From: Saprospiraceae bacterium | GTDB taxonomy: Bacteria > Bacteroidota > Bacteroidia > Chitinophagales > Saprospiraceae | Length of the DNA stretch: 64,000 nt | Assembly (NCBI GenBank): GCA_026993525.1 | Contig: JALWSS010000009.1 | Coordinates: 1 to 64,000 of the forward strand | Direction: 5' to 3' | Shown here: one piece after another, positions 24,421 to 51,665 of the stretch | Layout: every line of letters begins with the position of its first letter | How positions within the stretch are numbered: the first letter of the stretch is position 1 | Notes under the pieces: model-generated | What the model saw: only the letters and a program-made list of their open reading frames with translations | Databases searched by the model: none | Told to the model about the DNA's origin: nothing | Translations under genes and position numbers: made by a program

Positions 24421-25992
24421 ATGAACAGCCAAATGATTCGTCTCGCTTTCCTTCGGATTCTTGCATTCATCTTGCTCAGTGCAAGTCTCGCCTGCACAAC
24501 TACCAAAAAAACTGCCTCAACAGAACCCGGCCCGCCCCAAACCGTGGACTTCATCATCCTGCAAATGAATGATGTTTACGAGTTGTCACCACAGGAGAAC
24601 GGCGCGGTTGGAGGCCTGGCAAGGGTGGCTACACTGCGAAAAGAGTTGCTCAAAGAAACACCGCATGTACTGACCGTTTTGGCCGGAGATTTTCTGAGCC
24701 CCTCGCTGCTCGGCACCCTTAAACTGAACGGAGAACGGATCAAAGGCCGGCAAATGGTTGAAACCATGAATGCGCTGGGACTCGATCTGGTCGCCTTTGG
24801 CAACCATGAATTTGACCTGAAGGAAGAAGAACTGCAAAAACGCATCAACGAATCCCGCTTCGTCTGGCTGACCACCAACATCTGGCACAAAACAGAAAAC
24901 GGACTGGAACCATTCTACAAATACCAGGAAGGCAAACGCATTCAGATGCCTAAGGCTTTCACCTGGAACATTCGATACGACGAGAAGGCTGAGCCGCTGA
25001 AGGTGGGCTTTTACAGCGCTTGTATCAATGACAACGATCCTGACTACGTGCATTTTGACGATCCGTATCAGTCGGCTGAGAAAATGTACATGCATTTGTA
25101 CCCGGATTCAGATGTCCTGATCGGATTGACTCACCTCGAGTTGGTAATGGACCTGAAACTGGCCTCTATGCTGGTGAAAACTGCCCTCATCATGGGTGGA
25201 CACGAGCATGAAAACAGCATTGATACCGTCGGCAATGTGGTGGTTGCAAAGGCTGATGCCAATGCCAAATCGGTGTACGTGCACAGGTTCACCTACAACC
25301 TGGATGACAAGAGCTGGAAGTTGAATTCGTCTTTGGTCAGGATCACCGATGCGATAGCGCCTGACCCCGCAATTGACACCATCGTGAAAAAGTGGGAGGG
25401 CATCATGATGCAACAGATCAGTCAGGTGGTTGAGAATCCATCGGAGGTGATCTACAACGCCCATGTACCTTTGGACGGCCGGGAAAAGAGCATTCGAAAC
25501 CAACAGACCAACCTGGGGCAATTGATTGCTGCCAGTATGGCCTTTGCAGCCAAAAAGCCGGTGGACGGAGCGATCCTCAACAGTGGATCGGTGAGAATAG
25601 ACGACCAGCTCGAAGGACCCATAACCCCTGTGGAGATTTTCCGTACACTGCCTTATGGGGGAAAACTTTACGAGGTGGAACTCAGTGGAAAGATGCTCAA
25701 ACGCACACTGGATGCAGGATGGGAGAACAAAGGCCTCGGCGGGTTCCTGCAATGGCACAACATCAACAGGACCGAAGCCGGCGATTGGATCGTCGGCGGA
25801 AAACCCCTGGACCTCAAACGCAACTACCGGATCGTAATGGGAGATTATTTGTGGAAAGGCCTTGAAGCGGGCCTGGAGTTCCTGAATACCACCAACATGC
25901 TCTCGTGGGAAACCGTTGCCGAAGGCGATGAAACAGATTTGCGAAGCGATGTAAGAAAAGCTGTGGTGGCTTACCTGAAAACCTTGAAATAA
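24421..25992 (+). CDS. 5'-nucleotidase / metallophosphatase lipoprotein
   Basis: A 523-residue envelope protein with a lipoprotein signal (LLSASLAC). The upstream in-frame extension is rejected because it would bury this signal. The calcineurin-like domain shows LQMNDVYEL, VLTVLAGDFLSPS, LVAFGNHEFDLKEEEL and MGGHEHENS; the C-terminal 5'-nucleotidase domain shows QQTNLGQLIAASM, AILNSGSVRIDDQ and IFRTLPYGGKLYEVELSG. The first metal motif has Tyr where most members have His (NDVY, not ND.H), known from a bacterial subgroup. It probably dephosphorylates nucleotides or sugar phosphates outside the inner membrane. It leads a run of same-strand genes through ftsX. Confidence 0.9.
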   Translation: MNSQMIRLAFLRILAFILLSASLACTTTKKTASTEPGPPQTVDFIILQMNDVYELSPQENGAVGGLARVATLRKELLKETPHVLTVLAGDFLSPSLLGTLKLNGERIKGRQMVETMNALGLDLVAFGNHEFDLKEEELQKRINESRFVWLTTNIWHKTENGLEPFYKYQEGKRIQMPKAFTWNIRYDEKAEPLKVGFYSACINDNDPDYVHFDDPYQSAEKMYMHLYPDSDVLIGLTHLELVMDLKLASMLVKTALIMGGHEHENSIDTVGNVVVAKADANAKSVYVHRFTYNLDDKSWKLNSSLVRITDAIAPDPAIDTIVKKWEGIMMQQISQVVENPSEVIYNAHVPLDGREKSIRNQQTNLGQLIAASMAFAAKKPVDGAILNSGSVRIDDQLEGPITPVEIFRTLPYGGKLYEVELSGKMLKRTLDAGWENKGLGGFLQWHNINRTEAGDWIVGGKPLDLKRNYRIVMGDYLWKGLEAGLEFLNTTNMLSWETVAEGDETDLRSDVRKAVVAYLKTLK

Positions 25993-47626: not shown

Positions 47627-48577
47627 ATGATTAAATATTACATCAGAGAACAAGGCAGGGTTAAGGAGACGCTGGAGCCGACGCCGGGTTCATGGATCAA
47701 CATTTCTCCTCCTTTCACCCCGGAAGAGCTCGAGGAAGTGGCCCAGCAATTTGACATCCCGCTGGATTTCCTCACTGACCCGCTTGACATTGACGAGCGC
47801 TCGCGTTATGAAAGAGATGAAGACCAAAAACTCATCATTCTCAGTACACCCATCCTCAATCCGTTGGAGGAAGATATTGATGCCATATTCATCACCATTC
47901 CGGTGGGTATCGTGCTTACACCTGATCACCTGATCACCATCAGTTCGTATGAAAATCCGGTGTTGAACTTGTTTCTCGAGAACAAAGTGAAAAATTTTGA
48001 ACCGGAGGATGAGCAACTTTTTGTTCTTCAGCTTTTTGAACAAAATGTTTACCGGTTCCTGAATTGCCTGAAGCAATTGAATCAGCGCCGCAATCTCATC
48101 GAAAAGGAACTTTATTTTTCCAGCAGAAATCAGGAGTTGAAATACCTCCTCAGCATTGAAAAGAGCCTGGTATATTTTGCCTCCTCACTCAGCGACAATG
48201 AGTTGCTGAAGATGAAAATGAAACGAACGGATTTCTTGTCGCTGGGAGCAGATGAGGAAAAGCTCGAACTGTTTGAGGATGTCATCATTGACAACAGCCA
48301 GGCCCTTCAGATGGCCAATATGTACACCAACATCCTGAATGGTACCATGGATGCCTATGGCTCCATCATTTCAAACAACCTCAACCTGACCATTAAAAGA
48401 CTCACCACCATCACCATCATTCTGATGGTTCCCACACTTGTAGCGAGTTTTATGGGAATGAATGTTGTTCTGCCTGTTGAAGCAAATGAAGAGCACACCT
48501 TTTGGCTCATCATTGTCATTTCCATCGTGAGCAGCTTCATTTTGGGTTGGTATTTCCAACGGAAAAATCTCTTTTGA
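47627..48577 (+). CDS. corA: CorA-family divalent cation transporter
   Basis: A 316-residue CorA: N-terminal cytoplasmic alpha/beta domain (GSWINISPPFTPEELEEVAQQF), long helix with YTNILNGTMDAYGSIISNNLN, TM1 ending in the selectivity signature FMGMNVVLPV, TM2 (FWLIIVISIVSSFILGWYF) and a basic tail QRKNLF. The GMN motif defines the Mg2+/Co2+ channel family. Co2+/Mg2+ uptake next to a B12-dependent enzyme gene is suggestive but may be coincidence. Confidence 0.95.
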   Translation: MIKYYIREQGRVKETLEPTPGSWINISPPFTPEELEEVAQQFDIPLDFLTDPLDIDERSRYERDEDQKLIILSTPILNPLEEDIDAIFITIPVGIVLTPDHLITISSYENPVLNLFLENKVKNFEPEDEQLFVLQLFEQNVYRFLNCLKQLNQRRNLIEKELYFSSRNQELKYLLSIEKSLVYFASSLSDNELLKMKMKRTDFLSLGADEEKLELFEDVIIDNSQALQMANMYTNILNGTMDAYGSIISNNLNLTIKRLTTITIILMVPTLVASFMGMNVVLPVEANEEHTFWLIIVISIVSSFILGWYFQRKNLF

Positions 48578-48686
48578 TCCCCTCCGGATCTTGTCAGCAA
48601 TTCTTGTTTGATTTTCAACCCATTAAGATTTTTTCCCTCCCGGTTTAATCTATTTGCTTACAAAAACCGTAAATTCCGGTTTTGCG

Positions 48687-48771
48687 TTTTCCACAATGTG
48701 AATAACCTGTGGAAAAATACAAAGCACTGACAGGCAGCTTGTTGCAATAGTTATCCACAGCTTGTGGAAAA
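48687..48771. other. Cluster of five DnaA boxes; candidate oriC or DnaA-controlled region
   Basis: Five 9-mers fit TTWTNCACA: TTTTCCACA (48687, plus), TTATTCACA (48705, minus), TTTTCCACA (48716, minus), TTATCCACA (48751, plus, the classic high-affinity box) and TTTTCCACA (48771, minus). They fall within 85 bp of a 493-bp gap (48578-49070). A 7-bp inverted repeat AAAACCG/CGGTTTT (48663-48683) and AT-rich sequence lie just to the left. Chance would give about four such boxes in the whole window. The role may be the chromosomal origin or DnaA control of the ribonucleotide reductase. Confidence 0.7.
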
Positions 48772-48960
48772 CTCAATGCTGCCAAACTTTGAAGGTGCAT
48801 TACTTTAGTGCTTACAAACCACATACAGAGAAAAGTGCACACGTTCACCAACCGTCTTGCGGTCGAAACACAGGGGGGAACATATCCGTCTCACCAGACA
48901 AATTTCCGTTCCCGTTAAACAAACTTTCGAGGCTTACTGATACTAAAAACTATTGTGCCT

Positions 48961-48995
48961 CGTCTCCGCCTTCCATCGGAAGGTGGGGCGTTTTT
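48961..48995 (+). terminator. Intrinsic terminator in the ribonucleotide reductase leader
   Basis: CTCCGCCTTCC (48964-48974) pairs with GGAAGGTGGGG (48978-48988), extended by CG/CG past a bulge, then TTTTTG. It lies 76 bp before the nrdJ ATG. Upstream, CGAGGC (48928-48933) can pair with GCCTCG (48957-48962), whose last two bases belong to the terminator stem, so the two structures compete. Either an attenuator or the end of a short RNA. Confidence 0.7.
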
Positions 48996-49070
48996 GTGTA
49001 AAGACACTGGAAGGTATTGTGCGAATTGCAACGACATCACCTTTAACCAAACTCACACAAGCAACAGATT

Positions 49071-51665
49071 ATGGAGACATTGGCTTTGACTCACTCACCC
49101 ACAGGCAATGGGAAAAAAGGAACCACCCGGACATATACCTTCAAAGAAGCGCTGAAAGCGGCTACCCGGTATTTCAAGGGGGATGAGCTTGCGGCCAACG
49201 TTTGGATCAACAAGTACGCCCTCAAAGACTCGGAAGGGAATCTGTATGAGCGGACCCCTGACGATATGCACAAGCGGATAGCTACCGAGCTGGCCCGGAT
49301 AGAGGCGAAGTATCCGAACCCGGTGAAGTTTGATGCGCTGTATGAACTTCTGAAAAATTTCAAGTACATCGTTCCCCAGGGAAGCCCCATGTCGGGTATT
49401 GGCAACAATTATCAGGTGTCTTCACTCTCCAATTGCTTTGTCATCGGCAACAATGCAGACTCCTACGGAGGTATCATCCGCACCGATGAAGAGCAAGTGC
49501 AGTTGATGAAAAGACGGGGTGGGGTAGGCCACGACCTTTCTCACATTCGCCCGAAAGGCAGCCAGGTACTCAACAGTGCTCTTACGTCCACGGGACTGGT
49601 GCCGTTCATGGAACGCTATTCAAATTCCACCCGTGAGGTGGCCCAGGATGGCCGGCGGGGTGCGCTGATGCTCACTGTTTCAATTAAACACCCTGATGCG
49701 GAAGATTTTATTGATGCCAAACTGGAGGCCGGAAAAGTGACCGGTGCAAATGTGAGTGTCAGGGTAACGGATGAGTTCATGTCCGCAGCGGTGTCGGGCA
49801 AGAAGTTTACCCAGCAATATCCCATTGATTCTGACAAACCGCTATTCTCCAAGGAGATAGATGCACAGGCATTGTGGAACAAAATCATTCACAATGCCTG
49901 GAAATCAGCTGAACCCGGGGTGTTGTTCTGGGATACGATAATTCGGGAATCGGTACCGGATTGCTACGAAGACCTTGGGTACAAAACCATTTCAACCAAT
50001 CCCTGCGGTGAAATTCCGCTGTGCCCTTATGACAGTTGCCGTTTGCTGGCTATTAATCTTTACAGTTATGTAGATCATCCGTTTACGCCAAAGGCGAAAT
50101 TCAATTTCCAGAAGTTTTCACAGCATGTGCAATTGGCACAGCGCATCATGGATGACATCATTGACATTGAATTGGAGAAGATTGACCGCATTCTGGCCAA
50201 GATCGAAAACGATCCTGAAGCAGAAGATATCAAGGGGACAGAATACAAGCTTTGGAAGAAGATCAAGAAGACTTGTGAAGAAGGCCGGAGAACCGGCGTC
50301 GGAATTACAGCTGAGGGCGATATGCTTGCTGCACTTGGGCTTCAATATGGCACTGATGAAGCCATTGATTTTTCCACCGAGGTTCATAAAATACTGGCCG
50401 TCAATGCTTACAAGTCTTCGGTAAAGCTGGCCAGAGAGCGAGGCCCGTTCAAGATTTACGACGCTGCCCGTGAAGCAGGAAACCCCTTCATCAACCGGCT
50501 CAGGGAAGTCGATCCGAAGCTCTACGAGGACATGGTGAAGTACGGCCGCCGAAACATCGCCTTGCTGACCATTGCACCAACCGGTACGGTAAGTCTGATG
50601 ACCCAGACCACCTCAGGCATCGAGCCTGCCTTTCTCATCACCTACAAGCGCCGCCGCAAGGTCAATCCAAATGACCAGGAAGCCAAAGTGTCTTTCGTTG
50701 ATGAGGTCGGAGACGCTTGGGAGGAGTACAATGTTTTTCACCACAAGTTTCTCACCTGGCTGGAAGCCAATGGCGTTGACAGGAAGAAGGTTGAAAGCAT
50801 GGATGCGAAGGAATTGGATAAACTCATCCGGGAATCACCGTATCACAAAGCAACAGCCAACGATGTGGATTGGGTGCAGAAAGTAAAGATGCAGGGGGCC
50901 ATTCAGAAGTGGGTGGACCACAGCATCAGCGTAACGGTGAATATCCCTGAAAACACGCCCGAAGAAAAGGTGCGCGAGATTTACAAAACCGCGTGGGAAG
51001 CAGGTTGTAAGGGATGCACCATTTACCGGGAGGGCTCTCGTTCAGGGGTGCTCGTTTCTGACAAAGACAAAAAAGAAGACGCCTCATCTGCTGACCAGGC
51101 CAACTCCTTTGCCGTCACCTATGCACCCAAGCGCCCCAGGCGCCTGGATGCAGAGATCATCCGCTTCAAGAACAACAACGAGCGTTGGATTGCGGTGGTT
51201 GGTTTGCTGGAAGAAAGACCCTACGAGATTTTTACCGGACGGGCAGAAGATACTTTCATGATCCCGTCTTATGTTAGCAGAGGTTGGGTGCTCAAGCAAA
51301 AAGATGAGTTTGGCAACAACAGGTACGACTTCCAATACCTTGACAAAGACGGATACAAGGTGACCATGGAAGGGCTCTCCCGTTCTTTTGACAAAGAGTA
51401 CTGGAATTACGCAAAACTGATCTCTGGCACCTTGCGCCATGGAATGCCCCTTCAGTACGTAGTGAACATGGTAAACAGCCTGAATGTGGAACAAGAACAC
51501 ATCAACACCTGGAAAAACGGCGTGGTACGGGCGTTGAAAAAATTCATTCCGGACGGCACCCAGGCAGTAAAACAGGTTTGCCCGGAGTGTGGCGATCACG
51601 ATGGGGTGATCTACAAGGAGGGTTGCCTCATTTGCAAGAGCTGTGGCCACACTGAGTGCGGTTGA
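49071..51665 (+). CDS. nrdJ: Adenosylcobalamin-dependent ribonucleotide reductase (class II)
   Basis: An 864-residue class II enzyme reducing ribonucleotides to deoxyribonucleotides with B12. Motifs: SLSNCFVIGNNADSYGGI (first redox Cys), KRRGGVGHDLSHIRPKG, SNSTREVAQDGRRGALMLTV, NPCGEIPLCPYDSC (catalytic Asn-x-Cys-x-Glu), NIALLTIAPTGTVSLMTQ, and GCKGCTIYREGSRSGVL. The C-terminus has a zinc-ribbon-like CPECGDHDGVIYKEGCLICKSC used in re-reduction. No N-terminal ATP cone. Oxygen-independent, needs cobalamin. DnaA boxes and a terminator lie in its leader; no B12 riboswitch was recognised. Confidence 0.96.
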   Translation: METLALTHSPTGNGKKGTTRTYTFKEALKAATRYFKGDELAANVWINKYALKDSEGNLYERTPDDMHKRIATELARIEAKYPNPVKFDALYELLKNFKYIVPQGSPMSGIGNNYQVSSLSNCFVIGNNADSYGGIIRTDEEQVQLMKRRGGVGHDLSHIRPKGSQVLNSALTSTGLVPFMERYSNSTREVAQDGRRGALMLTVSIKHPDAEDFIDAKLEAGKVTGANVSVRVTDEFMSAAVSGKKFTQQYPIDSDKPLFSKEIDAQALWNKIIHNAWKSAEPGVLFWDTIIRESVPDCYEDLGYKTISTNPCGEIPLCPYDSCRLLAINLYSYVDHPFTPKAKFNFQKFSQHVQLAQRIMDDIIDIELEKIDRILAKIENDPEAEDIKGTEYKLWKKIKKTCEEGRRTGVGITAEGDMLAALGLQYGTDEAIDFSTEVHKILAVNAYKSSVKLARERGPFKIYDAAREAGNPFINRLREVDPKLYEDMVKYGRRNIALLTIAPTGTVSLMTQTTSGIEPAFLITYKRRRKVNPNDQEAKVSFVDEVGDAWEEYNVFHHKFLTWLEANGVDRKKVESMDAKELDKLIRESPYHKATANDVDWVQKVKMQGAIQKWVDHSISVTVNIPENTPEEKVREIYKTAWEAGCKGCTIYREGSRSGVLVSDKDKKEDASSADQANSFAVTYAPKRPRRLDAEIIRFKNNNERWIAVVGLLEERPYEIFTGRAEDTFMIPSYVSRGWVLKQKDEFGNNRYDFQYLDKDGYKVTMEGLSRSFDKEYWNYAKLISGTLRHGMPLQYVVNMVNSLNVEQEHINTWKNGVVRALKKFIPDGTQAVKQVCPECGDHDGVIYKEGCLICKSCGHTECG

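Follow-up and report, generated by a model that had tools for sequence, protein, structure and literature searches.

The five DnaA boxes crowded between a corA-like gene and the class II ribonucleotide reductase (RNR) gene nrdJ of a Saprospiraceae bacterium raise the question of whether they mark a replication origin, a DnaA-controlled promoter of nrdJ, or both at one place, as the initial annotation of the 64,000-nucleotide stretch analysed here (the window) had allowed. The answer that we favour, with a probability of roughly 0.87 and on the grounds of sequence comparison, is that they serve the nrdJ promoter as a control element to which DnaA binds. All five matches to TTWTNCACA within 85 bp proved to be exact, the one that had been claimed as perfect is indeed TTATCCACA, and the length reported for the gap between the two genes agrees with their coordinates (Table 1). 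The gene order in the window is corA - boxes - nrdJ - sir2, and both box pairs are convergent; a minus-strand box at the offset equivalent to that of the single additional box (+20) is also found in L042 and G061. The product of nrdJ is the sole RNR large subunit detected in the window's genome (G000, a single RNR-alpha match), and the DnaA encoded by this genome is intact, with the box-reading GGRDHSTV motif.

Table 1. Coordinates of genes and predicted regulatory features at the corA-nrdJ locus (positions in the window)
Feature	Position	Strand	Details
corA-like Mg/Co transporter gene, upstream neighbour	47627..48577	+	NCBIfam TIGR00383, 3.7e-34, under curated cut-off
corA-nrdJ gap	48578-49070		493 bp
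Distal inverted DnaA-box pair	48687..48705		TTTTCCACA (+, 48687-48695), 1-bp spacer, TTATTCACA (-, 48697-48705); exact matches
Single additional DnaA box	48708..48716	-	TTTTCCACA; exact match
Proximal inverted DnaA-box pair	48751..48771		TTATCCACA (+, 48751-48759), 3-bp spacer, TTTTCCACA (-, 48763-48771); exact matches
Predicted -7 promoter element	48801..48808	+	TACTTTAG (TAnnTTnG), 29 bp past proximal pair
Predicted nrdJ leader	48813..49070	+	~258 nt; holds conserved TTACTGATAC (48934-48943) and terminator-like hairpin (48964-48988, then CGTTTTT)
nrdJ, adenosylcobalamin-dependent class II ribonucleotide reductase	49071..51665	+	TIGR02504, 564 bits vs cut-off 400

The number of boxes in the window is ordinary and their clustering is not, since six were found against 7.3 +/- 2.6 expected from shuffling, and five of the six are packed into the cluster. 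The earlier expectation of about four boxes per 64 kb was slightly low, while the clustering itself stands. Under a Poisson model, at least five boxes would fall within 85 bp with a probability of about 3e-13 per position. Across the 5.16-Mb draft genome, convergent box pairs spaced by up to 30 bp occur only in this cluster, which holds two, no divergent pairs were found, and single TTWTCCACA boxes occur at background level (122 versus 117 for the reversed control). Clusters of at least four boxes in 120 bp were absent from 1.12 Mb sampled from three relatives.

Such box density, the perfect match and the recurrence of corA and RNR genes as neighbours in many genomes might suggest that replication of the chromosome starts here, with or without an nrd promoter at the same site, and an intergenic cluster of DnaA boxes is a feature shared with bacterial oriC; this reading, however, is hardly probable at all, as the nrd cluster lies off the skew minimum in relatives. 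No strand-skew switch occurs within the 64-kb window. Because the window's own genome is a draft of 230 contigs, GC skew was judged in relatives instead. In the closed relative G062 (7.5 Mb, one contig), five boxes in an identical layout precede nrdB at 297.5 kb. In sampled sequence of this genome, the switch in skew and in coding-strand bias falls within 2.06-2.44 Mb, and the skew minimum in contiguous sequence is at 2.350 Mb, beside ctaA/yedK and 2.05 Mb from the nrd boxes. This minimum has DnaA boxes of its own (2347678-2349377), located around the heme A synthase gene ctaA and a yedK-like gene, as well as an AT-rich tract with a TATTATTATTAG run, which we take to resemble DnaA-trios. The skew of G057 is noisier, with a minimum at roughly 1.85-2.5 Mb; its ctaA, with 15 boxes beside it, is located at 2.051 Mb, and its nrd locus at 0.956 Mb. 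The chromosome of G125 is complete, and its skew is too weak for use.

Boxes were found at ctaA in 10 of the 10 genomes examined. The region of the window's genome homologous to the G062 skew minimum is located on contig C205 (25106-27037, L276), where tandem TTTTCCACA boxes at 25106 and 25118 are followed by ctaA, an AT-rich tract with TATTATTATTAG, more boxes and yedK. By this homology, the C205 region is the probable true oriC of the window's genome, and the oriC of the family is probably located at ctaA/yedK. An AT-rich unwinding element or DnaA-trio tract, of the kind present at ctaA/yedK, was not seen by eye in the corA-nrdJ gap. An origin adjacent to dnaA was rejected as well: no box lies closer than 1.5 kb to dnaA (contig C134) in the window's genome, and dnaA of G062 is 2.35 Mb off the skew minimum. 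Thus, neither the suggestion that the cluster is oriC nor the suggestion that origin and nrd promoter coincide was borne out. Box density alone does not identify oriC, since the corA-nrdJ locus outscores the probable real origin of the same genome by box count.

The other suggestion of the initial annotation, DnaA control of nrdJ, gains strong support from conservation within the family, from a fixed promoter geometry and from the link to the main RNR. The boxes have not been lost in close relatives: nrdJ is preceded by box clusters in most of the Saprospiraceae loci examined, and mostly not in the more distant Flavobacteriales and Bacteroidales. The strict TGTGGAAAA form of the proximal pair is present in 31 of 249 genomes of the order, with many of the sites upstream of RNR genes, and the order-wide search revealed the inverted pair with a 3-bp spacer also before class I nrdBA. 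Boxes precede class I nrdBA, nrdJ of the window type and, in other families, a second type of nrdJ. The corA gene is the upstream neighbour of nrdBA, too, in many relatives, so that the order corA - boxes - RNR is common, with either RNR class filling the RNR slot.

Because either class may occupy the slot behind corA and the boxes, the effects of locus and gene had to be told apart. Where corA and the RNR gene lie apart, no box cluster was found at the displaced corA (15 genomes with a close corA were searched), which rules out the boxes as a corA-linked feature. The nrdBA genes located away from corA keep two to five boxes (G062, G093, G116, G006, G031, G041, G081, G003 and G040). In 16 genomes with both RNR classes, a mean of 2.25 boxes was found at class I genes versus 0.44 at nrdJ (Wilcoxon p 0.0016), and nrdJ as the sole RNR has a mean of 2.68 (Mann-Whitney p 8e-5 versus nrdJ in two-class genomes), with p-values that treat related loci as independent and are hence optimistic. 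The argument leans more on the fact that different RNR genes share one register. Few or no boxes are present at either RNR in some members of the family (G112, G140, G145 and G056).

Two genomes retain boxes beside corA with another gene behind. In G026 (L335, G026:C120), five boxes and the -7 element are kept, and nrdJ is located elsewhere without boxes; in G073 (L336, G073:C75), three boxes are kept between corA and sir2, and nrdJ, located elsewhere, has its own pair. The arrangement in G073 looks like a relocation of nrdJ, since corA - boxes - sir2 is the order of the window minus nrdJ. Recent loss of the RNR gene is the simplest account of the boxes in both genomes, and an additional DnaA-titrating role may exist alongside. 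An inverted DnaA-box pair was also observed upstream of a dnaN-like gene (beta clamp) in L156 (G067:C3), possibly another DnaA target.

The boxes, their geometry, their conservation and their association with RNR genes are directly observable in the sequence. In Flavobacterium, TAnnTTTG at -12 to -5 was mapped as the -7 element of sigma-A promoters (PMC9723704), and both the consensus and its placement were taken from that work. Among 39 loci with the proximal pair, which cover both RNR classes as well as another family, 29 have a TAnnTTnG element beginning 28-30 bp past the pair, and all other offsets over 90 bp gave only 2 matches. By this placement, the transcription start of nrdJ is predicted near 48813. 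Measured start to start, the distal and proximal pairs are 64 bp apart in the window; most loci of either class fall at 64-66 bp, and two at 56 bp. The composite pattern of pair, 28-30 bp and TAnnTTnG was found in 4 of 395 Bacteroidota genomes, in all cases before an RNR gene (two nrdJ of the window type, one nrdB and one PRK07562-type nrdJ in another family), and 0 times for the reversed control. Two more families have a matching layout, in G158 (PRK07562-type nrdJ) and G202 (nrdB). No match to sigma-70-like -35/-10 elements was found at the core promoter.

In many loci a second palindrome-like motif, TGAnnwTCA (TTGATTATCA), is located between the box pairs, at a constant 22-24 bp ahead of the proximal one. 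The window lacks this motif in its inter-pair spacer and has TTGATTTTCA upstream instead (48608-48617), and TTGATnwTCA was found at the origin region in only 2 of 10 relatives.

The cluster might also act as a DnaA-titrating or nucleotide-switching site that merely adjoins the RNR gene, in the manner of datA or DARS of E. coli, which are likewise DnaA-box clusters outside the origin. Dense high-affinity boxes and their persistence beside corA in G026 and G073, where no RNR gene follows, agree with this, and TGAnnwTCA at its fixed distance before the proximal pair could be the site of a partner protein. However, the window cluster is locked in register with the RNR promoter, and a free titration site would predict neither the fixed 28-30 bp spacing to the promoter element, nor the movement of boxes with RNR genes away from corA, nor their presence, in other families, ahead of unrelated RNR types, so that this explanation is improbable, while titration and promoter roles could coexist.

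The near-perfect palindromes TTWTCCACA-N3-TGTGGAWAA could, in turn, be the operator of another dimeric regulator of RNR whose site resembles DnaA boxes. This is very improbable: the spacers of 1 and 3 bp and the extra single boxes in one orientation fit 9-mers read by a monomer better, tandem and single copies of the TTATCCACA and TTTTCCACA 9-mers are found at the origin region too, and the genome encodes a DnaA with the customary recognition motif.

NrdR, which acts on RNR promoters of several classes through two palindromic sites with fixed helical spacing (PMC4009431), shows some likeness to the proposed system, but the sites in the window are DnaA boxes. NrdR control of nrdJ was rejected, as none of 100 Saprospiraceae genomes gave an NrdR (TIGR00244) match over the cut-off, compared with 9 of 14 control genomes, and no NrdR box was found in the window even at 3 mismatches. 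The apparent absence of NrdR from Saprospiraceae contrasts with its description as nearly universal in bacteria (PMC4009431).

The predicted leader of nrdJ has further features of possible regulatory significance. The TTACTGATAC sequence recurs in many nrd leaders of the family, in class I and class II alike, and the hairpin with its T-run could be an attenuator; the z-score of the leader fold is only -1.5. A B12 riboswitch or other Rfam RNA was rejected, with no Rfam match in the leader.

Under DnaA control of the nrdJ promoter, DnaA would bind the two convergent pairs, which are separated by 64 bp (about six turns of the helix), just upstream of a Bacteroidota-type sigma-A promoter, with the pair centres predicted at about -52 and about -117. 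The constant spacing between the proximal pair and the -7 element makes it probable that DnaA, once bound, touches RNA polymerase or positions it. We infer that such occupancy would make the capacity for dNTP synthesis depend on how much DnaA is present and in which nucleotide state, and hence couple it to the initiation of replication. As for the sign of regulation, we think that activation is likelier than repression, since the pairs are located upstream of a core promoter with no sigma-70-like -35/-10 match, while high DnaA-ATP could repress, by analogy with E. coli.

In E. coli, the nrdAB promoter is controlled by DnaA (Augustin 1994 and Olliver 2010, both cited after the review PMC8203912), and DnaA activates or represses nrdAB depending on its level and nucleotide state (PMC8203912). 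ChIP-seq has shown that E. coli DnaA prefers box pairs 2-3 bp apart, including those in the nrdA upstream region (PMC11317965). The window is similar in having closely spaced boxes upstream of an RNR promoter, arranged in pairs that could accommodate two DnaA molecules, as the double box required in E. coli for cooperative DnaA binding; the E. coli double boxes were modelled in tandem (PMC11317965), whereas the pairs in the window are convergent. Unlike E. coli nrdAB, the window has two such pairs, with 1- and 3-bp spacers and 64-66 bp apart, at a promoter of Bacteroidota type, serving a class II enzyme here and class I in relatives, and without NrdR, while the nrdAB operon is also under the control of NrdR, Fis and IciA. 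Experimental demonstration of DnaA control of RNR comes mainly from E. coli, and such control has been proposed for Caulobacter (PMC8203912). A text search of a library of open-access papers revealed no earlier account of DnaA boxes at the nrd genes of any Bacteroidota. DnaA control of nrd is already known from E. coli, and what is new is the rigid promoter with an inverted double pair, its persistence over the exchange of RNR class and its presence in a clade that lacks NrdR.

The promoter element is kept in the family even where the RNR gene behind it has been swapped for one of a different class. A wider proposal, to which we give an even chance, is that in Saprospiraceae and related families DnaA has replaced NrdR as the main regulator of RNR transcription, the DnaA-read promoter being the conserved unit behind which the RNRs (nrdBA and two NrdJ types) are exchanged. 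A distant phylum, different RNR classes and a clade lacking NrdR would make this an independent case of coupling between DnaA and RNR, and the coupling of initiation to dNTP supply becomes testable in culturable strains. If the proposal is true, whichever enzyme supplies dNTPs in these bacteria would be tied to the initiation of replication.
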